Source: a virus
IMG/VR virus record: IMGVR_UViG_3300006224_000025
Coordinates: 1 to 32,795 of that record
Direction: 5' to 3' (one strand)
DNA: 32,795 bases
Of this stretch, positions 7,945 to 27,235 are shown one piece after another. The notes beneath the pieces were generated by a model that saw only the letters and a program-made list of their open reading frames with translations, did not search any database and had not been told where the DNA came from. A program made the position numbers and the translations under genes. Numbering within the stretch: position 1 is the stretch's first letter; the number at the start of each line of letters is the position of its first letter.

Positions 7945-10900
7945 GTGGCTATTACATATCACGGTTTAGCTTCGACACCTGTTGATGCAGGTTCGAACTC
8001 TACTTCTCCTACTGTCATTACTCCGCCAGGGAGTATGTCAAGTGGGGATTTAGTGGTAGTGGTATGCTTTAACAGATTAAAAAGTGATACTCACGCTGTC
8101 TATAATAATGGTGGTCAGTCATGGACGAAATTAACCACTCAGACCACTACAGGAGCATTTACAACAGCGACTTGGTTTTATTGTGTATATGACGGAACGT
8201 GGGACGCTAACCCTTCGTTCTCACATGGCGGTACGAACAATACCTGTATGATGATGGTCTTCCGACCAACGTCAGGATATACATGGTCTGTTGATGTTAC
8301 GGAAGCTCCGGCTCTTTTCTCTGCACCCGGTTCTCCTTATGATGTTACGATTACAGGTATAACCTGCGCTTCTGCTTCTGTAGCCATTGCTTCTTGGGCA
8401 TCTTCTGATGACAATACTTGGGCATATCAGTCAGGAACATCATGGACACAACCAACAGGGGCAACTGTCAATAATACAGCAGGTAGTGATAGTGGAGTAT
8501 TAATGGCATATCGCTTAATGCCGTCAGGTGGTGCGTCAGGAAGTCCGGTAGGCAGAGAGACAACCGTTGGCGGTGATCCTGGTTGTCAGAATATAATGTC
8601 GTTCAAGGAGGCAATGGCTGCAAGCCCTATTGCAGGTAGTACGGCAGGAGGTGGAGCAAATACAGTTTCAGGTACTTTAAAAGGACGGGGTAAACTGTAT
8701 GGAGCAAGTGCCGGTATAAGTACTCCAGCTGTATCAGGAACATTAACAGCTAAAGGAAAACTGTATGGTTCTTCGGCAGGTGGGGGTGCAAATACGGTTT
8801 CTGCTAATCTGACAATGTACCATAGGTTAATAGGGCATACCTGTGCCAATTTACATACACGACTGAAAGGTTATTTTAAACTTGAGGAAGCAAGTGGTGA
8901 TGCCGTTAATGAAGTAAATGCTTCCTATCCTCTTTACGACGGTTCAACTCCACCAACTTATCATGAAACAGGTAAGAGTGGATATGGAATGAGTTTTGGT
9001 AATGGTACAAATTGTGTATTAGACAATAGTACAATTTATTTTGCACCAACAGGTAATGAATATTCTATTTCATTTTGGACAAAATTAAAAACTTTACCAT
9101 CAGTAGAAGAGAGAGAGTTTACTTTGGTGAGATTGACAACTCCTTCCACTCCTTGGGATAATATGATATTGTATGTTTATAATGTTGATGATAAACTTCA
9201 TTTTACAGTACGAAATACATCAGGGTATCAAAACGGGAATAATGATACAGCATGGGTAATAGATACTTGGTATCACGTGACTCTTGTAGTCAGGGAAGTA
9301 GGACAGACAGTAGCCCTTTATGTAAATACTGATATTGATTATTCATCGCAACTTCGTGGTCATGGTTACTATCCTCACTCTTCTATATATGTTGGTAATC
9401 AGTGGCAGGGTGGTCCAGATTGGGCTAATGCTATTATTGATGAGTTAATGTTCTATGACCGTGCCCTGACAGCCGATGAAGTTAGTACGTTATATGCAAG
9501 TGGTGATGGTTTCTTCTATCCTTTCCCAAGCAATAAAGTCAGTGGTACTTTAACAGGAAAGAACGGTATTTCAGGTGCTTCTGATGGTATAGCTACTGTT
9601 GGTGGTACCCTTTCAACTACAATGATTGTTCCTGTTAGTGCAACAGGTGACGGTTCGTTATGTGCAGATTTACAATTAGAATGTACTGTTCAGGATTGTT
9701 ATATGACTGTTGATGGGAATGGTATGTTCTATGACAATGAAGGAGGTACAGAGAATCCCGGCACATCAAGAACGATAACCTTTGGCGCACAGCGACAATT
9801 TTGGTTAAAGGTTACAAGTGGTTCGTGCAATGTAACAATCAGGCACTATAATAATCTATATTCATTTTATTGGTTGCATAGTGGAACGAATTATCCTACG
9901 ACAAGTATAACTACAAGTGGTCTTGCTCGTTGTCTTGACACTCTTAATATGAGTGGGAGTAATACGTTTTCAGGCGATTTTGTCGATTTACCACCTAATC
10001 TAAAGGTTCTACAAGGTCAAGATACTCAAATATATGGAGCATTAGCAGACCTGCCAAGGGGAATGACTTCTTTTGGTGTGTATGGAATGGGAACTGTTAC
10101 AGGGGTACTGACGGATTTACCAAGCGGTCTCATATATTTCTATTTTGCAAGTAGTGGTGGTAATATAACAGGTGACATATCAGACCTCCCTTCAGGACTT
10201 CTTATTTTGGATTTATATGGTTCTTCAACTATTTCAGGTGATTTAGCGGATTTGCCTGCGGGAGTAAGATGGTTTAATATCGCCACAGTCAGCACGATTA
10301 AGGATTACACTCAGGGTCACGTTTGGCCTGCAACAACTAATAATGTATCGTTTAATGCCACAACCGATGCTGCCGGACTTTCTCCGACAGAAGTGGACAA
10401 TCTTATAATTGATGTAAATACTTACTCGACTGCTGTTAATGGTTCAATTTATTTAGTGGGATATAACTCAGGTCGCACCTCTGCATCTGATACTGCTTAC
10501 AATGCCTTGATTGCAGACGGTTGGACGATAACAACCAAGAGTGCGATCTCAGGTTCGAGTTCAGGCGGTGGTGCGGAAACTGTCAGCGGGACATTGACGG
10601 GCAAAGGTGCATTAAGTTCGCTTGGTGCTGAATTAATTGTCAATGGTGGATTTGATAATGGTGGTTCGGGATGGACGACATTTGGGGAATCAACAGTCAA
10701 TACAGGAGTTGGAAGAATATACAGTTCTGATGGTTCACCATCCTATTTATATGAAGAAATTGGTTTAGTTTCTGGTCATTTATATAAAGTTGTTTTTGAT
10801 GTAATTGCTACTATTAGTGATTGGATTACATTAGGACAAAATGGGAATGAACATTGGGTTGATGTATCTGAAACAGGAATTAAGATTGAGTGGTTTACTT

Positions 10901-13167
10901 CCGACCATGATTCATGGATGGCATTTAAAAGATCAGGTATTACTGATGTTTCTATTGATAATGTATCCGTAAAAGAAGTTATAACAGTTGGCGTTGCAAC
11001 CGTCTCAGGAACACTTACCGCCAAAGGTGCATTGAAAGGCGCTGTATCACTTATAATATTTGAGAATTTCCAAGAATACAATGTTGGTGCATTAGCAGGA
11101 CAGCATGATTGGGTGGATGCAAGAGCGACTCTCCAAATTGGAGATTATTCAGGAGATAAGAGAATTTATTCTGATCACATAGAGGGCGAGAATGCTTATA
11201 AAAATATTCCATTTAATGCTGATCAGTTTGCAGAAGTAAAATGTGATTCTATTGGGAATGGATACATAGGAGTGGCAGTAAGGGAAACTGGTACTGGAGC
11301 AACATGGGATGGCTATGTATTGACTTATAATGTAAATATTACTACTGGACGGTTATATAAAATTACAGATGGTGGTTGGGCTCAATTAGGTAATACAAGC
11401 ACGTATTCGGTACAGATAGGAGATATAATCAGGCTTGAAGTAAGGGGTAATGTTCTGTCGTGTTATATAAATGGAGTACTTGATACAACAGTTGCTACAA
11501 ACGGTCAATATACTGATTCGGATTATGCGAGCGGTTTTCCTGGATTAAATTGGTATTGTTATTCAATTACAGGAGATCCAACGGGAGATGATTTTAAAGC
11601 AGGAGCATTTGTTACAACTATTGTAGGTACTCTCAAAGCCAAAGGTTCTCTTGCAGGTTCAAGTTCGGGAGTAGCTACGGTTGAAGGTGTTTTGAAGGGG
11701 AAAAGTGAATTAACAGGAGTATCAGACGGATTTGCTATAGTATCAGGTGATCTTACCCCTGCTGCATCAGTAGGAGAATTGGTGGGGCAGACTGACGGTA
11801 TTGCTGATGTTTTGGGTACACTCAAGGGTGCAGGTAGGTTATATGGTGCTACTGCTGGTATAGCTGACGTTTCAGCATTCCTTCGTGTTCAGGGTGGTAA
11901 TCTGCTTTATGGAAGTTCTGATGGTATAGCTACTGTAAGTGGTACAATAAAGAGTAATATACAGGGAGAAGGTTCTGCAACAGGTGTGGCTTCTGTTTTA
12001 GGTATACTTCGTTCAAGACAACCTATTTCAGGAATTATTAGTGGTGTTGCTTTACTATCAGGTACTTTAAAAGCTAAAGGAGAGTTAGCCGGAACGATTG
12101 GTGGAGTGGCTTTGCTTGGTGGTATATTGAAAGGCAAAGGTGAATTGCAGGGAAGTACGGATGGTGTAGCTACGGTTTCTGGTATCATTGCAAGTGAAGG
12201 ATATGCTACAGGAGCAACCGATGGAGTAGCAGTGGTAAGTGGGACGTTAAAAGGAGCAGGCAAACTATATGGCTCTGCAACAGGCATTGCAGATGTTTCC
12301 GGAGTAGTTCAAGCCAAAGGTAAGTTATATGGTGCTACCGATGGTGATGCCTTTGTAGATGGATTACTTACTCAGAATCCGCATATCTATGGAGCAACTG
12401 ATGGAATAGCCGTAGTTGGGGGAACTCTTGAAGGTACAGGCAAGTTGCAGGGTTCTATTACTGGAGTGGCTTCTTTGTGGGGTTCTCTGGCTTTGGGTCA
12501 GATAATGGGACGTACCGATGGTACAGCAACCGTTGGCGGGGCGATACATGGACATGGTAAGTTATCAGGGGCTACAGGTGGCGTTGCTACGGTTAGTGGA
12601 ACAATTAAGAGTAAGATACACGGAGCAGGTTCCATAAGTGGTATCACCACGGTTGGAGGTTCATTAAAAGGCAAAGGAGAGTTACTTGGTGAAATAAGCG
12701 GTTTTGCTTCGGTTTCCGGCACTATAAAGGCAAAGGGTACATTATATGGATCTACGGGCGGAGTTGCCTTGCTGGGTGGTGTATTAGGTGGTAAGGGCGA
12801 TTTATCAGGGGAGATACTGTCTTACGCTACCTTATCCGCTACATTAACCGCAACAGGTGATCTGGCAGGACGGACGGACGGTATTGCAAATGTTTCAGGT
12901 TTTATAGCTGTTCCAGGAATGCTGAGAGGAAGTATAGTTGGAGTGGCTGCAGTATCAGGAACAATACGAAGTTTCATTTATGCTCAGGGTTCTATCAATG
13001 GAGTAGCTTCAGTATCAGGAGAGATGTGGAGTTACATACTTGGAGAACTAATTACGGGGAATAGTTTAATCACTTCATTGATCGAGGGGAATAGTTCAAT
13101 TCTTGAGTTGGTTGATGAAAATAGTACCATAACAGAATTAATTGCGGATAATAGTATAATAATATAA
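7945..13167 (+). CDS. Giant modular repeat protein (tail fibre or adhesin-like), GTG start
   Basis: This is a 1740-residue protein. An in-frame TAA at 7930-7932 leaves GTG at 7945 as the only reasonable start. Residues 1-220 are a beta-rich phage-type domain. About 30 copies of a 20-residue unit of the form TDGVATVSGTLKGKGKLYG follow; about 23 are tandem at roughly 1230-1695 and the rest separate folded modules. These modules are LamG-like (about 302-528), a Cys-containing beta domain (about 560-650), LRR-like with LPSGL and LPAGV turns (about 660-860), a carbohydrate-binding-like domain starting ELIVNGGFDNGG (about 893-1012) and a second concanavalin-like domain (about 1035-1222). The protein ends in four 10-residue repeats of the type LI.GNS.I. 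No enzyme active site is seen. A long, flexible, glycan-binding surface fibre is the best reading, and the Ser/Thr-rich repeats could be glycosylated. Confidence 0.75.
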   Translation: MAITYHGLASTPVDAGSNSTSPTVITPPGSMSSGDLVVVVCFNRLKSDTHAVYNNGGQSWTKLTTQTTTGAFTTATWFYCVYDGTWDANPSFSHGGTNNTCMMMVFRPTSGYTWSVDVTEAPALFSAPGSPYDVTITGITCASASVAIASWASSDDNTWAYQSGTSWTQPTGATVNNTAGSDSGVLMAYRLMPSGGASGSPVGRETTVGGDPGCQNIMSFKEAMAASPIAGSTAGGGANTVSGTLKGRGKLYGASAGISTPAVSGTLTAKGKLYGSSAGGGANTVSANLTMYHRLIGHTCANLHTRLKGYFKLEEASGDAVNEVNASYPLYDGSTPPTYHETGKSGYGMSFGNGTNCVLDNSTIYFAPTGNEYSISFWTKLKTLPSVEEREFTLVRLTTPSTPWDNMILYVYNVDDKLHFTVRNTSGYQNGNNDTAWVIDTWYHVTLVVREVGQTVALYVNTDIDYSSQLRGHGYYPHSSIYVGNQWQGGPDWANAIIDELMFYDRALTADEVSTLYASGDGFFYPFPSNKVSGTLTGKNGISGASDGIATVGGTLSTTMIVPVSATGDGSLCADLQLECTVQDCYMTVDGNGMFYDNEGGTENPGTSRTITFGAQRQFWLKVTSGSCNVTIRHYNNLYSFYWLHSGTNYPTTSITTSGLARCLDTLNMSGSNTFSGDFVDLPPNLKVLQGQDTQIYGALADLPRGMTSFGVYGMGTVTGVLTDLPSGLIYFYFASSGGNITGDISDLPSGLLILDLYGSSTISGDLADLPAGVRWFNIATVSTIKDYTQGHVWPATTNNVSFNATTDAAGLSPTEVDNLIIDVNTYSTAVNGSIYLVGYNSGRTSASDTAYNALIADGWTITTKSAISGSSSGGGAETVSGTLTGKGALSSLGAELIVNGGFDNGGSGWTTFGESTVNTGVGRIYSSDGSPSYLYEEIGLVSGHLYKVVFDVIATISDWITLGQNGNEHWVDVSETGIKIEWFTSDHDSWMAFKRSGITDVSIDNVSVKEVITVGVATVSGTLTAKGALKGAVSLIIFENFQEYNVGALAGQHDWVDARATLQIGDYSGDKRIYSDHIEGENAYKNIPFNADQFAEVKCDSIGNGYIGVAVRETGTGATWDGYVLTYNVNITTGRLYKITDGGWAQLGNTSTYSVQIGDIIRLEVRGNVLSCYINGVLDTTVATNGQYTDSDYASGFPGLNWYCYSITGDPTGDDFKAGAFVTTIVGTLKAKGSLAGSSSGVATVEGVLKGKSELTGVSDGFAIVSGDLTPAASVGELVGQTDGIADVLGTLKGAGRLYGATAGIADVSAFLRVQGGNLLYGSSDGIATVSGTIKSNIQGEGSATGVASVLGILRSRQPISGIISGVALLSGTLKAKGELAGTIGGVALLGGILKGKGELQGSTDGVATVSGIIASEGYATGATDGVAVVSGTLKGAGKLYGSATGIADVSGVVQAKGKLYGATDGDAFVDGLLTQNPHIYGATDGIAVVGGTLEGTGKLQGSITGVASLWGSLALGQIMGRTDGTATVGGAIHGHGKLSGATGGVATVSGTIKSKIHGAGSISGITTVGGSLKGKGELLGEISGFASVSGTIKAKGTLYGSTGGVALLGGVLGGKGDLSGEILSYATLSATLTATGDLAGRTDGIANVSGFIAVPGMLRGSIVGVAAVSGTIRSFIYAQGSINGVASVSGEMWSYILGELITGNSLITSLIEGNSSILELVDENSTITELIADNSIII
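11650..13034 (+). repeat. Tandem array of about 23 imperfect 60-bp units inside the giant gene
   Basis: Each unit encodes 20 residues: a small/polar pair, [DTS]G[VI]A.V.G.[LI], then K.KG.L.G. Most units are exactly 20 residues; a few are 19, 22 or 23. The units differ in codons, so the array is old or under protein-level selection rather than freshly amplified. The same unit recurs upstream between the folded modules (for example 8620-8830, 9535-9610, 10545-10620, 10985-11045). Confidence 0.85.
13048..13164 (+). repeat. Four 30-bp repeats encoding the C-terminal decapeptides
   Basis: The last 39 residues before the stop are 10-residue units aligned on N-S: LITGNSLITS, LIEGNSSILE, LVDENSTITE and a final shorter LIADNSIII. 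The AATAGT core is kept in DNA. The pattern would suit a short beta-solenoid or coiled oligomerisation tip, unlike the Gly-rich 20-residue repeats before it. Confidence 0.7.
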
Positions 13168-18971: not shown

Positions 18972-19439
18972 ATGAATATTGCACATAACACAGTAATTCT
19001 GAAGAACTACTCGAATGTATTTGAGGAACACCTTGCGGGTGGGACAATATATCCGGGTATGCTTCTTATTATGTCTGCGGCTGATACGGTCGTTGCACAT
19101 AATGATGATGCCCCAGCAGCTGGCACGATGGTCATGTTTGCTGTGGAAGATGCCCTTCAGGGCAGATCTATTGATGATCCTTATGTATCGGGAGATCCAG
19201 TCAAAGTTTGGATTCCTTATCGTGGGGATTATGTTTATGCTATTCTTGAGGATGGCGCTAATGTAGCAGTTGGAGCTTACCTTGAGTCTAATGGTGCTGG
19301 TTATTTACAGGCATTCTCGTCTGGTAATGGTGCTGTTGCTCAGGCAATGGAAGCACTTGATCTTTCTGGCTCCTCTGGAGAAGAAACATCAGAAGCTCCA
19401 TTTGGCTTCAACAAGAGAATCAAGGTTAGAATATTATAA
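18972..19439 (+). CDS. Capsid decoration / head-stabilising protein
   Basis: This 155-residue protein lies directly before the major capsid gene. It is beta-rich and typical of capsid decoration or head-fibre-like proteins: AGGTIYPGMLLIMSAADTVVAHND, an AAGTMVMFAVEDALQG stretch, VSGDPVKVWIPYRGDYVYAIL and an EDGANVAVGAYLESNGAGYLQ end. It would bind outside the HK97-fold lattice. AGGAGG at 18958-18963 lies 8 nt before the ATG, suggesting high expression. The assignment rests on pattern and position. Confidence 0.75.
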   Translation: MNIAHNTVILKNYSNVFEEHLAGGTIYPGMLLIMSAADTVVAHNDDAPAAGTMVMFAVEDALQGRSIDDPYVSGDPVKVWIPYRGDYVYAILEDGANVAVGAYLESNGAGYLQAFSSGNGAVAQAMEALDLSGSSGEETSEAPFGFNKRIKVRIL

Positions 19440-19458: not shown

Positions 19459-20568
19459 ATGGTAAACGTTGATTTAATTGTTGACGGTAAAGCTCAAGGA
19501 GCTTTGGCAAACTACATTGCAGCCAATGGAAGAATGGATCCTAACAAGATGCGACCTTTCCTTGGTGCTGATAACAAACCGTATTTCTCGGTGTACAAAG
19601 GTGGGGATCCCACAATTCAGGAAAACTGGACTGTTATTCCTGCCTTAAATGTTAATGCTACTCTCCGCAGGGATGAGTGGAAAGCATTAGATGATGCTGT
19701 TGTAAGAGCAGCTGATTACAGGCTTGGTGGTATTGATGATCTAAAAGCCAGAGGACTTACTTATACATTAGGAAATGCTATGGGAACAACTGTTCTCGAA
19801 TGGCATGACGTTGCAGGTGATCTGGAGGCTGATATATCAATGGATGGAATAACAAGGGCACTCAACAATCGTCCTGATTGGAATTACAATTATATTCCAA
19901 TACCCATCGTTCACGTTGATTATGAAATCAATGCAAGAGAATTGGCTACCAGCCGGAACATGGGTAATCCTCTGGATACTACAATGGCTGAACGTGCAGC
20001 TCGTGCTGTATTGGAAAGATTGGACAAAATGTTATTTACCAGCCTTACTTACAGTTATGGTGAGAAAGACAGCCATAGTCGGAACACAATTTACAGTTAT
20101 GTAAATCATCCTGACAGACACCAGATTTCTCTGGGAACTGCTTGGGACGATTCCAGCATTACTGGTAAGGCTATTGTTGATCAGATCATTTCCTGGAAGC
20201 AGCACAGCATTGAAGCCAGACACTATGGTCCATGGCAGATCTATATCCCAACAGCATATGAAACCATACTGGATGAGGATTATGTAGGGACCACACCTGA
20301 CACTGCTCCAAACACAACCATCCGTCAAAGGATAATGCAGATTTCTGGCATCCTTGGTATCAAAGTTATAGATATCCTGGCTGCTGATAATATTCTGATG
20401 GTTCAAATGACATCGGATGTTGTACGTTTGGTTCAGGGACTTGGATTACAGAATGTTCAGTGGGGAGAAGAAGGTAATTTTGTTACCAAATACAAAGTTC
20501 TCACCATCCAGGTACCGCAGATCCGTTCAGATCCTGCAGGTCGAAGTGGAGTATTGCATATTGCATAA
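19459..20568 (+). CDS. Major capsid protein, encapsulin-like HK97 fold
   Basis: This 369-residue main shell protein resembles the encapsulin/Linocin-M18 branch of the HK97 fold: TLRRDEWKALDDAVVRAADY, then LEADISMDGI, IPIPIVHVDYEINARELATSR and AERAARAVLERLDKMLFT. The C-terminal part contains WQIYIPTAYETILDEDY and DVVRLVQGLGLQNVQW. I start at ATG 19459 because AGGAGG at 19445-19450 lies exactly 8 nt upstream; the frame stays open back to 19270, but that overlaps the decoration gene. No long cleaved N-terminal delta domain is seen, consistent with a separate scaffold. A hairpin with T-run follows the gene. Confidence 0.88.
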   Translation: MVNVDLIVDGKAQGALANYIAANGRMDPNKMRPFLGADNKPYFSVYKGGDPTIQENWTVIPALNVNATLRRDEWKALDDAVVRAADYRLGGIDDLKARGLTYTLGNAMGTTVLEWHDVAGDLEADISMDGITRALNNRPDWNYNYIPIPIVHVDYEINARELATSRNMGNPLDTTMAERAARAVLERLDKMLFTSLTYSYGEKDSHSRNTIYSYVNHPDRHQISLGTAWDDSSITGKAIVDQIISWKQHSIEARHYGPWQIYIPTAYETILDEDYVGTTPDTAPNTTIRQRIMQISGILGIKVIDILAADNILMVQMTSDVVRLVQGLGLQNVQWGEEGNFVTKYKVLTIQVPQIRSDPAGRSGVLHIA

Positions 20569-20613: not shown

Positions 20614-20967
20614 ATGGAACGTACAAAAAGAACAACAAAAGAAGGTGAAATCCAATGGAGAAAGATGGGAGGAGGATTCCTTCATCTACCCAACAGGATA
20701 ATTAAACCTGGCGATGTGTTTTTTGCTCGTCCTGCTGATATCCCAAAGGCTTTTCGTGATACAGTAATTCCTTTAGATAAGGAAGAATTGAGGTCAGTAG
20801 AAGAGAATCCCGTTGAGTTAATTCTGGTTAACAAACCAGAATATACTAAGGTAAAACGGGAAGGGAGTAATTGGTGGGATATTGTGGATGCTCAAGGAAA
20901 GGTTATCAATGAAAAAGCCTTGCGTGAGCCACAGGCAGAAGAGTACCTTCAATCTCTACAAAGATGA
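20614..20967 (+). CDS. Unknown 117-residue protein between capsid and modification genes
   Basis: The protein starts MERTKRTTKEGEIQWRKMGGGFL and then has a compact domain with IIKPGDVFFARPADIPKAFRDTVIPL, which reads like a small beta-barrel adaptor. It continues with YTKVKREGSNWWDIVDAQGKVINEKALR near the C-terminus. Similar proteins often sit after the capsid gene in phages, but the function is unknown. It overlaps the first cassette gene by 4 nt (ATGA). It could be a head protein or the acceptor or adaptor for the modification enzymes. No SD is visible. Confidence 0.65.
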   Translation: MERTKRTTKEGEIQWRKMGGGFLHLPNRIIKPGDVFFARPADIPKAFRDTVIPLDKEELRSVEENPVELILVNKPEYTKVKREGSNWWDIVDAQGKVINEKALREPQAEEYLQSLQR

Positions 20968-21692
20968 GATGGAGTGTACCTCCTATTTGGGAAGGAGGAG
21001 ATGTATGGATACTTGGTGGGGGTTCGTCTGTACCCAAGCAGTTCGGGATCCCTGACGATGTTATACAAAACGTGGTAAAGGGAATATCACCACCAAGCGC
21101 CTACTCTCCATATATGAGTGCATTACATAATAAACACGTGATAGGAATAAACGTGGCATATTTGATAGGAGAGTGGATTGATATGTGCTTCTTTGGAGAT
21201 GGGAAGTTCTTTACTCCCCACAAGGAGAGGTTAGCAAAATGGCCGGGATTAAAGGTTACTTGTTTTAAAGGTCTTGAGAAGGTACCTTGGGTAAAATATT
21301 TGTTACAGGATGCTGCACACTCACGTGGAATTAGTAAAGATCCGTCCACTGTTTCTTGGAATGTAAATAGTGGTTCTGCTGCAATAAGTGTTGCAGCACA
21401 TACGGGAGCGAAGAGAATAATATTGTTAGGATTTGATATGCGTTTTAATAATGAAGGAGAAAGACATTGGCATCATTTATATAAAGGAGTCAGTTCTGAA
21501 CCTCCTATTATCAAAGGAAGAAGGAGAGCTACAAATCCACCGTTTGACTTTTCAAGGCATCTGAGAGGGTTTCCACAGATAGCGGAAGATGCAAGAAAGA
21601 TGGGAATTGAGATATTAAATGCAAGTCCAGATAGTGCAATTACACAATTTCCAAAGTTTACAGTAAAAGAATTATTATTTGATAACAGTTAA
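20964..21692 (+). CDS. DUF115/MptE-like glycosyltransferase-type protein
   Basis: This 242-residue protein opens with a nucleotide-binding-like strand and loop, VWILGGGSSVPKQF. Its core is SGSAAISVAAHTGAKRIILLGFDMRF (about 138-163), the hallmark of DUF115/6-hydroxymethylpterin pyrophosphokinase MptE-like proteins. These include motility-associated (Maf) glycosyltransferases, and relatives with a GT42-like fold occur. HWHH follows. It is the first gene of the cassette and overlaps the preceding gene by 4 nt. Attaching a sugar such as a nonulosonate-type residue to a virion protein is possible; the substrate is unknown. Confidence 0.7.
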   Translation: MRWSVPPIWEGGDVWILGGGSSVPKQFGIPDDVIQNVVKGISPPSAYSPYMSALHNKHVIGINVAYLIGEWIDMCFFGDGKFFTPHKERLAKWPGLKVTCFKGLEKVPWVKYLLQDAAHSRGISKDPSTVSWNVNSGSAAISVAAHTGAKRIILLGFDMRFNNEGERHWHHLYKGVSSEPPIIKGRRRATNPPFDFSRHLRGFPQIAEDARKMGIEILNASPDSAITQFPKFTVKELLFDNS

Positions 21693-21693
21693 G

Positions 21694-22452
21694 ATGAAAA
21701 TAACACAGGGATATCAATCAAAATCATTAAGTGCATTTGAATACGCAAAAATGCACAAGCTCAGGAAGTATGATGATCGGCAGGAGCCACTCGTGGTATT
21801 TGGTTGTTATTCTAACGAAGATATTGATATAATTAAAAATCATAAATCGACTGTCATTATTCAATGGGCAGGTCTTGATTCAAAAAGATGTGGACATTCT
21901 CCATTTATTAAAGCAAGGAATATAATAAATGTCAGTCCTCATCCTCATATTGTGTCCTTTTTTGAACGGATAGACGTAAAATGTCATTTTATAAAGTGGG
22001 CTATTAATGAAACCATTCATTCACAGGTTCTGGGAGATAAGGTATATAGTTATGTGAATAAGAACAATCCTGTGTATTATGGTAGTGAAGTCTTAAAAAC
22101 AATAAAGACAGATTATGAAATATTGATTGCAGATTATACCTACCCAACGAGCAGCTTTCCAAAAGATTTGATATATTCTAAAGCCTTCCTTGGTTTACAA
22201 TTATGTAATTATACAGGTGGAGGGTTTGGCATTGTTGAAATGGGATTGCGTGGAATAAGAGTGGTTACCAATGTTTTAAAACTTCCACATACAATACCTT
22301 GGAGTTGTACCTGTGATATAGAAGAGGTTATAAATGCTGAGTCTTGTAACATAGGAAAGATTAATAAAGAATTGGCGTGGGCTGTATATGATTCAGTTCT
22401 GTGTACAGAGAAATTGGAATGTTATGATTTAGATCAATTAATGATAGCATGA
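21694..22452 (+). CDS. Putative glycosyltransferase, GT-B-like
   Basis: This is a 252-residue protein from ATG 21694; a TTG at 21681 region would add five residues. The early strand LVVFGCYSNEDIDIIKNHKS and IIQWAGLDSKR resemble the first Rossmann half of GT-B enzymes. The late segment YTGGGFGIVEMGLRGIRVVTN resembles the nucleotide-sugar site, where a conserved Glu lies in a G.GI.E..L.G.P pattern. The enzyme class is therefore likely but weakly supported. It ends with an ATGA overlap into the methyltransferase gene. Confidence 0.6.
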   Translation: MKITQGYQSKSLSAFEYAKMHKLRKYDDRQEPLVVFGCYSNEDIDIIKNHKSTVIIQWAGLDSKRCGHSPFIKARNIINVSPHPHIVSFFERIDVKCHFIKWAINETIHSQVLGDKVYSYVNKNNPVYYGSEVLKTIKTDYEILIADYTYPTSSFPKDLIYSKAFLGLQLCNYTGGGFGIVEMGLRGIRVVTNVLKLPHTIPWSCTCDIEEVINAESCNIGKINKELAWAVYDSVLCTEKLECYDLDQLMIA

Positions 22453-22961
22453 ATAACAAGATGGAAGAAATGAGAGTAGGTGTGTTAAAGATAGGATTAT
22501 TGGATTTAATAATGGAATTGCCTTCTCATTTGATTATGGTAGAAATTGGGTGTTTTAAAGGAGAGAGTACTGAATTGTTTTTAAACTCTGGAAAGGTTCT
22601 GAGACTGTATGCTGTGGACACGTGGAGATCTGGGAGATTTAGACAGGCGGAAGTCTTGTTTGATAAAAGGTTTAAGGATAGTAAAGAAAGAGGAAAGATT
22701 AAGAAATTAAGAATGACTATGTCAGAGGCTATACCCTTTCTGCCAAAGGTGAATTTTGTTTATATTGATGGAGATCATACGTATGAATGGGTAAAAAAGG
22801 ATATAACAAATTCCCTAAGGATTCTTAGAAAAGGAGGAATACTTGCAGGACATGATTACGTGAATAGAGGTAATGTGGGTGTTATTCAAGCTGTCAATGA
22901 AATGGTAGGTGTACCTGATAAAATATATAAGGATTCAAGTTGGTTAAAATTAATAGTATGA
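22449..22961 (+). CDS. Class I SAM-dependent methyltransferase (Methyltransf_24-like)
   Basis: This 170-residue protein has motif I IMVEIGCFKGEST (about 29-41), an acidic end of strand two AVDTW, and YIDGDHTYEWVKKDI (about 105-119), followed by LRKGGILAGHDY. This is the pattern of the small Methyltransf_24 group, many of which methylate sugars or glycosylated products and use D/H residues near the active site. In this setting sugar O-methylation is a reasonable inference. Both ends overlap neighbouring genes in ATGA, so it is tightly coupled in the cassette. Confidence 0.8.
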   Translation: MNNKMEEMRVGVLKIGLLDLIMELPSHLIMVEIGCFKGESTELFLNSGKVLRLYAVDTWRSGRFRQAEVLFDKRFKDSKERGKIKKLRMTMSEAIPFLPKVNFVYIDGDHTYEWVKKDITNSLRILRKGGILAGHDYVNRGNVGVIQAVNEMVGVPDKIYKDSSWLKLIV

Positions 22962-23671
22962 AGATAGTTACCGCAGCATTTGCTTATAATGAAAGACCAT
23001 ACATTCCATTCATGGTAGAATATTACCGTGAGCAAGGCTGTGATCTTTTCATACTGGATAATTATTCAACAGATGGTACCTATGAATGGTTAATAGAACA
23101 TGGTGTTACCACGGCTCGGGTAGATACCAGAGATTCTTTTTTACTTGTTAAATTACAGGCAACATTGTTAGCAGGGCTGAGAAAGATAAAACCTGATTGG
23201 GTTGTCTATTGTGGGATTGATAGTTATTATTGCTTTAAAGGAACAATTAGGGAGGAGATTGAGAAAGCAGAAAGTCTTGGATATAATATGATTGAAGTCA
23301 ATCATTTTTCAATGTATAATACAGGAGAGAAATTTCAGTTACCATTCACAAGAAATTATTTTTACGGGGCAAACCATAGAAGGTTACAGATGATAGGAAA
23401 ATTTGTACCAACATTTAAATTCGTAGCTGATGCTCTTTACATGCCAAATAAGAAGGTTTATGTGAGTGATGGTATGTTTGTTAATTATGGAATGTGTAAA
23501 CCCCGTATCGAGCGAGAAATCACGTTTGCTCGGCGAAAAAGAGCTTGGTTGCTTGGGGAGTATAGAGGACATGGTGTTCATTATGCTCCAGCACAACGGA
23601 GACAGTGGATTTGGAGTAAGGAAGAATTAATAGATATAAGAACAACAGAATTTTTTAAGCTAATGAAATGA
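22958..23671 (+). CDS. GT-A (family 2-like) glycosyltransferase, degenerate DxD
   Basis: This 237-residue protein runs from ATG 22958, which overlaps the previous stop. The start IVTAAFAYNERPYIPFMVEYY and the nearby FILDNYSTDGTYEWL are typical of the glycosyltransferase 2/92-like group of bacterial GT-A enzymes. Where these have a D.DEF metal site, this protein has VVYCGIDSYYCF (about 83-93), so only one Asp is kept. It may use a different metal ligand or be inactive. The rest includes a long helical and basic C-terminus with FARRKRAWLLGEYRGHG. It overlaps the next gene by 4 nt. Confidence 0.75.
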   Translation: MKIVTAAFAYNERPYIPFMVEYYREQGCDLFILDNYSTDGTYEWLIEHGVTTARVDTRDSFLLVKLQATLLAGLRKIKPDWVVYCGIDSYYCFKGTIREEIEKAESLGYNMIEVNHFSMYNTGEKFQLPFTRNYFYGANHRRLQMIGKFVPTFKFVADALYMPNKKVYVSDGMFVNYGMCKPRIEREITFARRKRAWLLGEYRGHGVHYAPAQRRQWIWSKEELIDIRTTEFFKLMK

Positions 23672-24423
23672 TAGCACTTATTACACCAACTGGAGGAAGA
23701 CCTGAGCAGATACAACTCTGTGCTGGATTTATGGTACGTCAAGACTATAAAGGAGAAGTTCTCTGGGTAATTATTGATGATGGTATTCAGAAGACAACTG
23801 ATTGTATTACTAATGATTTCAGAGAAGGTTGGAAAATAATAAAGATATTTCCAGAGGAGAAATGGAAACCCGGTGGAAACACACAGGCTCGCAATCTTTT
23901 GTTAGGAATTGAGGAAGTCGAAAATTATGAGGTAGAACTGATTTTTATAGTTGAGGACGATGATTATTATTCTCCACAGTATCTGCGTAAAATGATAGAA
24001 GGGGCAGGAGGTTATGATTTAATTGGGGAACAGAATACTGTATATTATAATCCAGTTATGAGGAGGTATAGGTATAATAGAAATGATAGACATGCAAGTT
24101 TGTTTCAGGTTGCATTTAGACCGACGGTGATTTCTCTATTTAAAACGGTCTGTAAGGTTAAACAACGTTTTGTTGATATTATACTTTTCAAGATGGCTTC
24201 TATGTATATGATAAAACTATATGATAGTAACCAGCATTTTGCGATAGGAATAAAAGGGCTTGGGGGACGTCCAGGAATAGGGCAAGGACATAGGTTAGGA
24301 ATGAGAATGGAGGCTGATTTGTCGATGACAGAATTAAAGAAGTTGATAGGAGAGGATTATGTTTTTTATAAAGATATGTATGAACCAACCAGTATTCATA
24401 ACAGGGGTAGAAAGATCAGGTAG
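23668..24423 (+). CDS. GT-A (family 2-like) glycosyltransferase
   Basis: This 251-residue protein starts LITPTGGRPEQIQLCAGFM, followed by the nucleotide-site strand VIIDDG (about 34-39). A clear metal site FIVEDDDYYSP (about 93-103) follows, where the Asp cluster would hold the metal and nucleotide sugar. This is a more complete enzyme than its upstream paralogue. The C-terminal part holds basic segments. Its end overlaps the sulfotransferase start by 44 nt. It lies in the modification cassette and probably adds a sugar to a virion protein or glycan. Confidence 0.8.
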   Translation: MIALITPTGGRPEQIQLCAGFMVRQDYKGEVLWVIIDDGIQKTTDCITNDFREGWKIIKIFPEEKWKPGGNTQARNLLLGIEEVENYEVELIFIVEDDDYYSPQYLRKMIEGAGGYDLIGEQNTVYYNPVMRRYRYNRNDRHASLFQVAFRPTVISLFKTVCKVKQRFVDIILFKMASMYMIKLYDSNQHFAIGIKGLGGRPGIGQGHRLGMRMEADLSMTELKKLIGEDYVFYKDMYEPTSIHNRGRKIR

Positions 24424-25054
24424 TTCTTTAATTGCCAAAATATTAGATATCTGTGGAGTATTTAAAGGTAATACTTCAACGATGTATGAAAATATTGAGG
24501 TAAGAACCAAACTTGCTTCCTACATTGCACAGAATATTAATAATGGAGAATTTATACCAAATATTCAACAATTGAATATACCTGTAGATTGGAGGAAGAA
24601 AATTGATGATATTTTAGGTCAAGAAGGATATAAGAATGGTTTATGGTTTTTAAAAGGAGCTCAGTTAGCACAGACTTGGCCAGTATGGAACTATGCATAC
24701 CCTAATGCCAGATGGCTGATTGTCAGGCGGAGAACAGGTGATATAATACAGTCCTGTATTAAGACAGGGTATATGCGTATCTTTAAAGATGAGGCAAATC
24801 TACAGGCGATAGGCGTAGGAAGTGAGGAGGAGGGATGGAAATGGTGGGTACATCAATATGAAAAGGCATTTGTTGGCATGATAGAGGCTGGATTGGATTG
24901 CAAGATAATTTGGCCTGAGAGAATGGTAAGAGGTGATTATCAACAGGTGTATGAAACATTGGAATGGTTAGGATTGAAATGGAGCAGTAAGATAGTTGAA
25001 ATAATAGATCCCATGTTAATTAAAAGTAGGAGGAAAGAACAATGGCATGCGTAA
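24380..25054 (+). CDS. Sulfotransferase-like protein
   Basis: This 224-residue protein runs from ATG 24380; an ATG at 24359 would add seven residues. FITGVERSGSSLIAKIL (6-22) is the 5'-phosphosulfate-binding loop of PAPS sulfotransferases. RWLIVRRRTGDIIQSCIKT (111-129) supplies the 3'-phosphate-binding Arg and Ser. The enzyme would move sulfate from host PAPS to a hydroxyl, most plausibly on the glycan made by the preceding genes. The last 13 nt overlap the connector gene, whose AGGAGG lies inside this one. A sulfotransferase in the structural operon of a phage is unusual. Confidence 0.8.
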   Translation: MNQPVFITGVERSGSSLIAKILDICGVFKGNTSTMYENIEVRTKLASYIAQNINNGEFIPNIQQLNIPVDWRKKIDDILGQEGYKNGLWFLKGAQLAQTWPVWNYAYPNARWLIVRRRTGDIIQSCIKTGYMRIFKDEANLQAIGVGSEEEGWKWWVHQYEKAFVGMIEAGLDCKIIWPERMVRGDYQQVYETLEWLGLKWSSKIVEIIDPMLIKSRRKEQWHA

Positions 25055-26800: not shown

Positions 26801-27235
26801 ATGGCAAGTAATGCTATTGCTGGTGTTGGAACACTATTTCGCAGATGGGATACATCTACGGGGTGGGCATCCATCGCTGAGGTAAACTCAATAACAGGAC
26901 CTGGAATGACCAGAGACTTTATTGATGTAACGTCATTGGACTCCACTGGTGGATATCGTGAATTCATCGCTGGGTTTCGTGATGGGGGTACTGTGACTCT
27001 CGCAATGAACTTCACTCGTGCAACATACGATATTATGAAGGCCGATTTCGAGAGTGATGACGATGTTCTTTATGAAATTGTTCTACCGGATGCTGATGTA
27101 ACTTCTCTGGAATTTATGGGATTGGTAACAGAATTACCACTCACTATTCCAGTAGATGACAAAGTTACAGCTGATGTGACTATTAAAGTCAATGGGCAGG
27201 TAACGGTGAACTCTGGAACAGGAACGGGTGCATAA
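26801..27235 (+). CDS. Major tail tube protein, lambda gpV-like
   Basis: In this 144-residue protein, EVNSITGPGMTRDFIDVTSLDSTGGYREFIAGFRDGGTV is the diagnostic stretch, followed by FMGLVTELPLTIPVDDKVTADVTIKVNGQVTV, the standard end of tail tube proteins. It would form stacked hexameric rings. No Ig-like extension is present. AGGAGG at 26790-26795 lies 5 nt before the ATG. A weak hairpin terminator follows the gene. No sheath gene precedes it, which supports a siphovirus. Confidence 0.92.
   Translation: MASNAIAGVGTLFRRWDTSTGWASIAEVNSITGPGMTRDFIDVTSLDSTGGYREFIAGFRDGGTVTLAMNFTRATYDIMKADFESDDDVLYEIVLPDADVTSLEFMGLVTELPLTIPVDDKVTADVTIKVNGQVTVNSGTGTGA

Follow-up and report, generated by a model that had tools for sequence, protein, structure and literature searches.

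Introduction

Glycosylation of virions is already known from the mycobacteriophages Corndog and Che8. In Corndog an O-methyltransferase and glycosyltransferases (GTs) are encoded between the portal and protease genes, and the authors proposed that the capsid carries methyl and glycan modifications (PMC4351075), its glycosylation being reported later (PMC12363180). A passage in PMC12619734 cites mycobacteriophage glycans at the C-termini of capsid and tail-tube subunits. Maf enzymes carry out O-glycosylation of Ser/Thr residues in flagellin, several donors being accepted by one Maf (PMC11339370), and sulfotransferases have been noted in phage genomes, with unclear function (PMC10580990). Here we describe an island of six genes, A to F, between the major capsid protein (MCP) gene and the neck genes of an uncultured bacterial virus, the 32.8-kb IMG/VR record IMGVR_UViG_3300006224_000025, analysed over its whole length and referred to below as the window. 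A first-pass annotation of this DNA had described one fixed six-gene set; comparison with relatives shows that the real unit is a conserved frame, opened by A and closed by F, around an exchangeable interior. We consider it probable that the island is a virion-glycan assembly locus, with O-antigen-like variability and ending in sulfation.

A conserved frame around an exchangeable interior

The late operon of the window runs from the terminase through many other genes to the portal, a MuF-like head protein, a DUF2213 protein, a decoration protein and the MCP, and continues with a 117-residue protein, A to F, a DUF4054 neck protein, the tail tube protein and the tape measure. The island and its surroundings comprise:

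19459..20568, + strand, MCP, the upstream anchor of the island (DUF6260, 1.5e-14; phrog_771, 1e-14)
20614..20967, + strand, small conserved 117-residue protein between the MCP and A, in the same position in most relatives
20964..21692, + strand, gene A, Maf/GT42/MptE-fold protein, first island gene and proposed initiating glycosyltransferase
21679..22452, + strand, gene B, probable glycosyltransferase judging by its sequence, also found in this order in locus L063, and alongside D and E in locus L215
22449..22961, + strand, gene C, class I S-adenosylmethionine (SAM) methyltransferase (Methyltransf_24, 1.2e-16)
22940..23671, + strand, gene D, GT2-type glycosyltransferase (Glyco_tranf_2_4, 8.9e-9)
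23668..24423, + strand, gene E, GT2-type glycosyltransferase with an EDDDYY motif (Glycos_transf_2, 4.8e-4, under the cut-off)
24380..25054, + strand, gene F, last island gene, predicted sulfotransferase dependent on 3'-phosphoadenosine 5'-phosphosulfate (PAPS), from fold, profile and PAPS-binding residues
25042..25449, + strand, neck or head-tail connector protein, the downstream anchor (DUF4054, 9e-7; phrog_302, 8e-10)

Scans with F, the MCP and A gave 115 loci. Open reading frames (ORFs) in these loci were assigned with a plain longest-ORF rule and may contain errors in some start positions and a few small genes. The frame was counted in 45 loci that are non-redundant by A sequence and extend to the neck genes; loci in which an ORF on the opposite strand hides A in the greedy maps (e.g. 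L112, L113 and L084) were left out of the counts. Wherever the capsid genes are in view in these 45, A lies directly 3' of them, and F precedes the neck genes in 44 of the 45, directly in 38 and one gene away in six. A is likewise present in 18 of 18 loci selected by their MCP (at least 50% MCP identity, with room downstream). Among F-selected loci with downstream sequence, a neck gene stands no more than two genes away in 76 of 79, and A is found in all 31 with the MCP in view. Because MCP-selected and F-selected loci both show the frame, it does not stem from the choice of query, and its presence in 45 or more distinct relatives removes any concern over chance. With at least 500 relatives of F in IMG/VR, and neck genes so regularly beside it, sulfotransferases in structural operons are not rare in this lineage, as they had been taken to be. 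Relatives of the MCP in IMG/VR number 28. In L030, A and E are present and F is absent, the 90-residue ORF found there not being an F remnant.

Relatives with only ∼33% MCP identity are without the island, as in Brevundimonas phage MaInes, whose MCP gene is closely followed by the neck genes. The cultured relatives of the MCP are distant only, with identities of at most 34%. Relatives in genome collections come from metagenome-assembled genomes (MAGs) of Spirochaetota, Zixiibacteriota, Deltaproteobacteria and similar groups rather than from gut bacteria, and the mucin mimicry suggested in the first-pass annotation thus finds no gut link. A distant cousin's head-module remnant (L124), located among bacterial genes in a Zixiibacteriota MAG chromosome, CP070742.1, contains A, a methyltransferase and a GT-like gene but no F, and gives a clue to the hosts of the wider group. 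In an Omnitrophota MAG contig (L127) there is a phage, temperate by its look and with a gene resembling serine recombinases, in which A stands alone between a putative pair of MCP and small ORF and a connector-like gene.

Between A and F lie from 0 to 10 genes, the extremes being L114 with none and L076 with 8-9 kb. The 237 interior proteins fall, at a strict cut-off, into 102 families, 71 of them singletons, and no interior family is held in common by 52% of locus pairs at 60-70% MCP identity and by 77% at 50-60%. In each of the 39 loci compared, the interior is poorer in GC than the head genes and the tail genes, with mean gaps of 6 and 4 points. Between L016 and L018, whose MCPs are 98% identical, one 1.1-kb gene is present in one and cleanly absent from the other; in L014 the homologous gene encodes a radical-SAM protein. 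Representatives of the interior families match methyltransferases of several kinds including FkbM, NDP-sugar epimerases/dehydratases, radical-SAM enzymes, transferases of GT2, GT11, GT25, GT47 and GT8 type, a second type of sulfotransferase, and adenosine 5'-phosphosulfate (APS) kinase.

Parts that are separate genes in the window are joined elsewhere in single ORFs: A with D- and E-type domains (L032:11514-13598, 694 residues), A with a C-type methyltransferase (L011:2295-3572), A with GT2 and GT-B (L034:11452-13893), A with GT8 and a methyltransferase (L086:10001-12931), and a sulfotransferase with a methyltransferase (L067:10740-11945), L067 also encoding an APS kinase and, besides its fusion, a second, divergent protein of F type. 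These fusions are evidence, separate from gene order, that the island enzymes serve one pathway. One alone could be faked by a sequencing error, but with five different fusions this is unlikely.

Gene A has the Maf/GT42/MptE fold

The product of gene A is a single domain of 242 residues, for which AlphaFold gives a predicted local distance difference test (pLDDT) score of 93.4 with an alignment of 48 relatives. Its best structural match is Maf (5mu5), a flagellin glycosyltransferase, with a VIA Z score of 13.5 over 193 residues at 4.0 Å; the GT42 enzyme CstII scores 12.1 and the MptE-type HPPK 10.1. In PHROGs, A belongs to phrog_4603, 'alpha-2,3-sialyltransferase' (8e-29). Against the MptE-like Pfam family PF01973 it reaches 19.3 bits at a cut-off of 34.6 (E 1e-3), and 45 of the 48 relatives match at E<0.01. 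Since the Pfam score is under the family cut-off, we assign A by its fold and do not file it as a Maf or sialyltransferase; the DUF115/MptE-like label given at first pass agrees with the fold, the Pfam match itself being weak. A literal sialyltransferase was rejected as a reading of A, NeuA and NeuB not being found in 47 records.

Gene F is a predicted PAPS-dependent sulfotransferase

The start of F is most likely at 24380 (MNQPVFITG..., as in relatives) and not at 24359. Its AlphaFold model (pLDDT 94.9, alignment of 52 relatives) matches tyrosylprotein sulfotransferase (TPST) with a Foldseek value of 4e-6 and a VIA Z score of 15.8 (root-mean-square deviation 3.5 Å, 191 residues); the top VIA rows are sulfotransferases throughout, carbohydrate sulfotransferases having Z near 12. 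The F profile finds TPST1 at 1.5e-8. Sulfotransfer_3 from Pfam matches the window F at 7e-6, with 26.8-27.0 against a cut-off of 27, and matches all 52 members of the F family at E<0.001 (best 2.2e-10).

Across the 52 sequences, R10 and G12 of the 5'-phosphosulfate loop GxxRSG and the 3'-phosphate-binding residues R115 and S123 are invariant, E35 is kept in 49 and K90 in 51. We take E35 and K90 to occupy the places of the catalytic Glu and Lys of TPST. From the fold and the PAPS-binding residues we conclude firmly that F belongs with the PAPS-dependent sulfotransferases, this being its predicted activity. APS kinase is the enzyme that makes PAPS, the donor that F needs. It is found over the cut-off in six of 47 records (Pfam 6e-17 to 6e-19 in the three tested), and in 16 of the 79 F-selected loci, about a fifth, its gene separates F from the neck gene; the island enzyme matches solved adenylyl-sulfate kinases at 4e-12. 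The F family has no match across 50,697 records of cultured phages, and there is therefore no cultured example of the whole island among them.

Genes B to E and the gene junctions

All six ORFs are open, in order and at confirmed coordinates, between the DUF6260/phrog_771 MCP and the DUF4054 neck protein, as the first-pass annotation had placed them. Its methyltransferase, two GT-A enzymes and PAPS-type sulfotransferase are also borne out by Pfam, which supports C as a methyltransferase, D and E as GT2 (E under the cut-off) and F as Sulfotransfer_3 (at the cut-off). Gene B, called 'GT-B-like' from a motif reading, finds no match in Pfam, PHROGs or a PDB profile search, and its fold is left unassigned; its start is probably slightly downstream of 21679, at MKITQGY. 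Overlaps were correctly described at the junctions, which read -14, -4, -22, -4, -44 and -13 through the island, but the 4-base ATGA form, said to be almost everywhere, occurs at only two of the six.

The order A-B-C-D-E recurs in L063 (MCP identity 53%), whose contig stops before the F position, and B-D-E recurs in the unrelated contig L215, immediately 5' of a head protease. The neighbourhood search proposed at first pass thus recovers parts of the gene order, the full six-gene set not being seen elsewhere. Gene E has 19 homologues among the interior proteins, most of them placed directly before F. The 44-base overlap of E and F in the window is in different frames, and in relatives it is mostly 4 bases; E has apparently gained a C-terminal extension. 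At L109:2646-3869, E follows, in one ORF, a second protein that bears a GKGPSL motif, looks like another domain of MptE/DUF115 type and has no Pfam match.

Virion proteins as likely targets

The island ORFs are co-directional in 377 of 378 cases. Among the 237 interior proteins, 234 are without a membrane segment and the remaining three have one hydrophobic segment; no membrane GT or flippase-like protein is present among them, and the Gtr-like feature of serotype conversion is thus not seen. Searches of 16 records, the majority longer than 50 kb but perhaps incomplete, turned up no integrase of either the tyrosine or the serine type. Because the island is in the head operon, co-directional and soluble, and because surface-glycan systems need membrane transferases, we favour the virion over the cell surface as the target. 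Homologues of A in unrelated phages stand after head closure in PAJU2, beside the MCP in phi_D3, and between tail and lysis genes in the Caulobacter phage CcrBL9.

Two structural proteins of the window are candidate acceptors:

18972..19439, + strand, head decoration protein (PHROG 766 head decoration, 2e-7), possible acceptor
26801..27235, + strand, major tail (tube) protein (phrog_158 major tail protein, 1.4e-21), second possible acceptor

The decoration protein has a Ser/Thr-rich C-terminal patch, LSGSSGEETS (about 19362-19391), and the tail tube protein a C-terminal tail, NSGTGTGA. Such patches are found in 47 of 74 decoration homologues (last 45 residues), 13 of 35 tail tube proteins and none of 75 MCPs, and they fit the C-terminal mycobacteriophage glycans cited in that passage of PMC12619734.

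Other features of the window

Positions 7945-13167 encode a 1740-residue protein in which degenerate repeats of the type GVATVSGTLKGKGKLYGSTDG are numerous, and shorter versions of the protein occur in relatives; by eye, its N-terminal region has LamG-like and leucine-rich-repeat-like stretches. Positions 1-1540, preceding the small terminase, are mostly non-coding and AT-rich, with GGTAT/TGGTAA-like repeats.

Discussion

The modified virion glycan proposed at first pass has two parts that fare differently: a coherent glycan, methyl and sulfate pathway is strongly supported by position, fusions and APS kinase, and the virion as its target is the best-supported inference. On the reading that we favour, A is a transferase of Maf/GT42 fold that is produced along with the head proteins and would, in the host cytoplasm, attach the first sugar to a Ser or Thr residue of a virion protein, most likely in the C-terminal patches of the decoration and tail tube proteins. 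The interior enzymes, B to E in the window, would extend and methylate the glycan, and F would add sulfate from PAPS as the final step. The conserved ends would then be the invariant steps of attachment and sulfation, and exchange of the interior between phages would alter the type of glycan. Gene content, folds, frame, interior turnover, the link to APS kinase and the fusions are observed; what we infer is which protein accepts the glycan, in what order the enzymes act, which sugars are donated and what the phage gains. For the uncultured lineage as a whole the balance is even on a wider claim, namely that it carries a polymorphic O-antigen-like virion locus at a fixed site in the head operon, framed by a conserved Maf-fold glycosyltransferase and a conserved sulfotransferase, the latter often accompanied by a kinase that makes its PAPS, and giving sulfated, strain-variable surfaces.

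Several points weigh against a virion glycan. The fold of A is common to MptE, which is not a glycosyltransferase, and neither NeuB nor NeuA or another CMP-sugar synthase gene, which would supply a donor for A, is present in 47 records, although the host could supply CMP-nonulosonic acid. The acceptor proposal is a post hoc comparison of composition and a lead only. Genes in structural operons can also have other targets.

If F instead sulfated a virion protein directly, on tyrosine or another side chain and independently of the glycan enzymes, it would act as eukaryotic TPST does. Its best structure and profile matches are indeed tyrosylprotein sulfotransferases, and L114 retains A and F only. 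We nevertheless consider this unlikely: Sulfotransfer_3 includes bacterial enzymes acting on small-molecule acceptors, carbohydrate sulfotransferases also match the model (Z near 12), F is always accompanied by glycan enzymes, and the L067 fusion joins a sulfotransferase to a methyltransferase. Phage glycosyltransferases commonly modify the host surface, and the GT11, epimerase and FkbM methyltransferase families of the interior resemble O-antigen and capsule genes. Superinfection exclusion or serotype conversion is improbable all the same, given the lack of a membrane GT or flippase-like protein (three of 237 with one hydrophobic segment) and of an integrase in 16 records, together with the fixed site within the head operon.

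A glycan made on a small soluble carrier or on an exopolysaccharide precursor would make the position of the island merely a site tolerant of insertion. The interior does act as an exchangeable low-GC insertion, and island-free relatives have the MCP and neck genes near each other, but a merely tolerant site would not require A and F at fixed ends, where essentially all members keep them, and we regard this as very unlikely. The least probable product is a hypermodified DNA base, glycosylated and sulfated. A passage in PMC10829341, referring to Iyer 2013, cites phage base modification by GTs and sulfotransferases; however, the genes are located with head genes and not replication genes, and a thymidylate-synthase-type enzyme (PF00303) was not matched in 16 records. 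A search for a base-modifying dioxygenase of Tet/JBP type (PF12851) gave no match, its control being equally silent.

Should a sulfated virion glycan be confirmed, this would be, as far as we have found, the first sulfated phage particle, with a virion surface encoded by a fast-exchanged locus comparable to bacterial O-antigen and capsule loci. The lineage gives a fixed context and two conserved enzymes for testing. It also raises the evolutionary question of what selects for variable charged virion glycans where antibodies are absent; adhesion to matrix, grazing by protists and host sensing of capsid proteins may be among the causes.

Comparison with known systems

The open-licence full-text literature yielded neither a report of a sulfated phage virion nor one of a conserved A-to-F frame with an exchangeable interior, subscription papers being outside the search. 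The island shares with gp35-gp38 of Corndog (Cluster O mycobacteriophages) a methyltransferase, there an O-methyltransferase, and glycosyltransferases in a virion operon and, as far as the 16 records searched here show, the lack of an integrase. Glycans have been reported on the capsid and tail tube of Corndog. The Corndog genes sit between portal and protease, in contrast to the position of the island between MCP and neck, and as described they include no sulfotransferase, APS kinase, Maf-fold protein or conserved frame with an exchangeable interior. In PAJU2 and phi_D3 (Yuavirus) the A homologue, named 'alpha-2,3-sialyltransferase', is part of the head-neck structural module, with a methyltransferase two genes on in PAJU2 and five in phi_D3; that set is short and fixed and has no sulfotransferase of the F family, none being found across the 50,697 phage records.

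The likeness to Maf (DUF115) and GT42 lies in the fold of A, Maf being an enzyme that links a sugar directly to Ser/Thr residues of a protein in the cytoplasm; A differs in being a 242-residue single domain with less than 20% identity to both, in phages without nonulosonic-acid genes (47 records). F resembles TPST1/2 and the Sulfotransfer_3 family in its fold, its PAPS-binding motifs and its conserved R, E and K positions, and differs from TPST1/2 in having only ∼17% identity to them and in being encoded by a phage, within a head operon.

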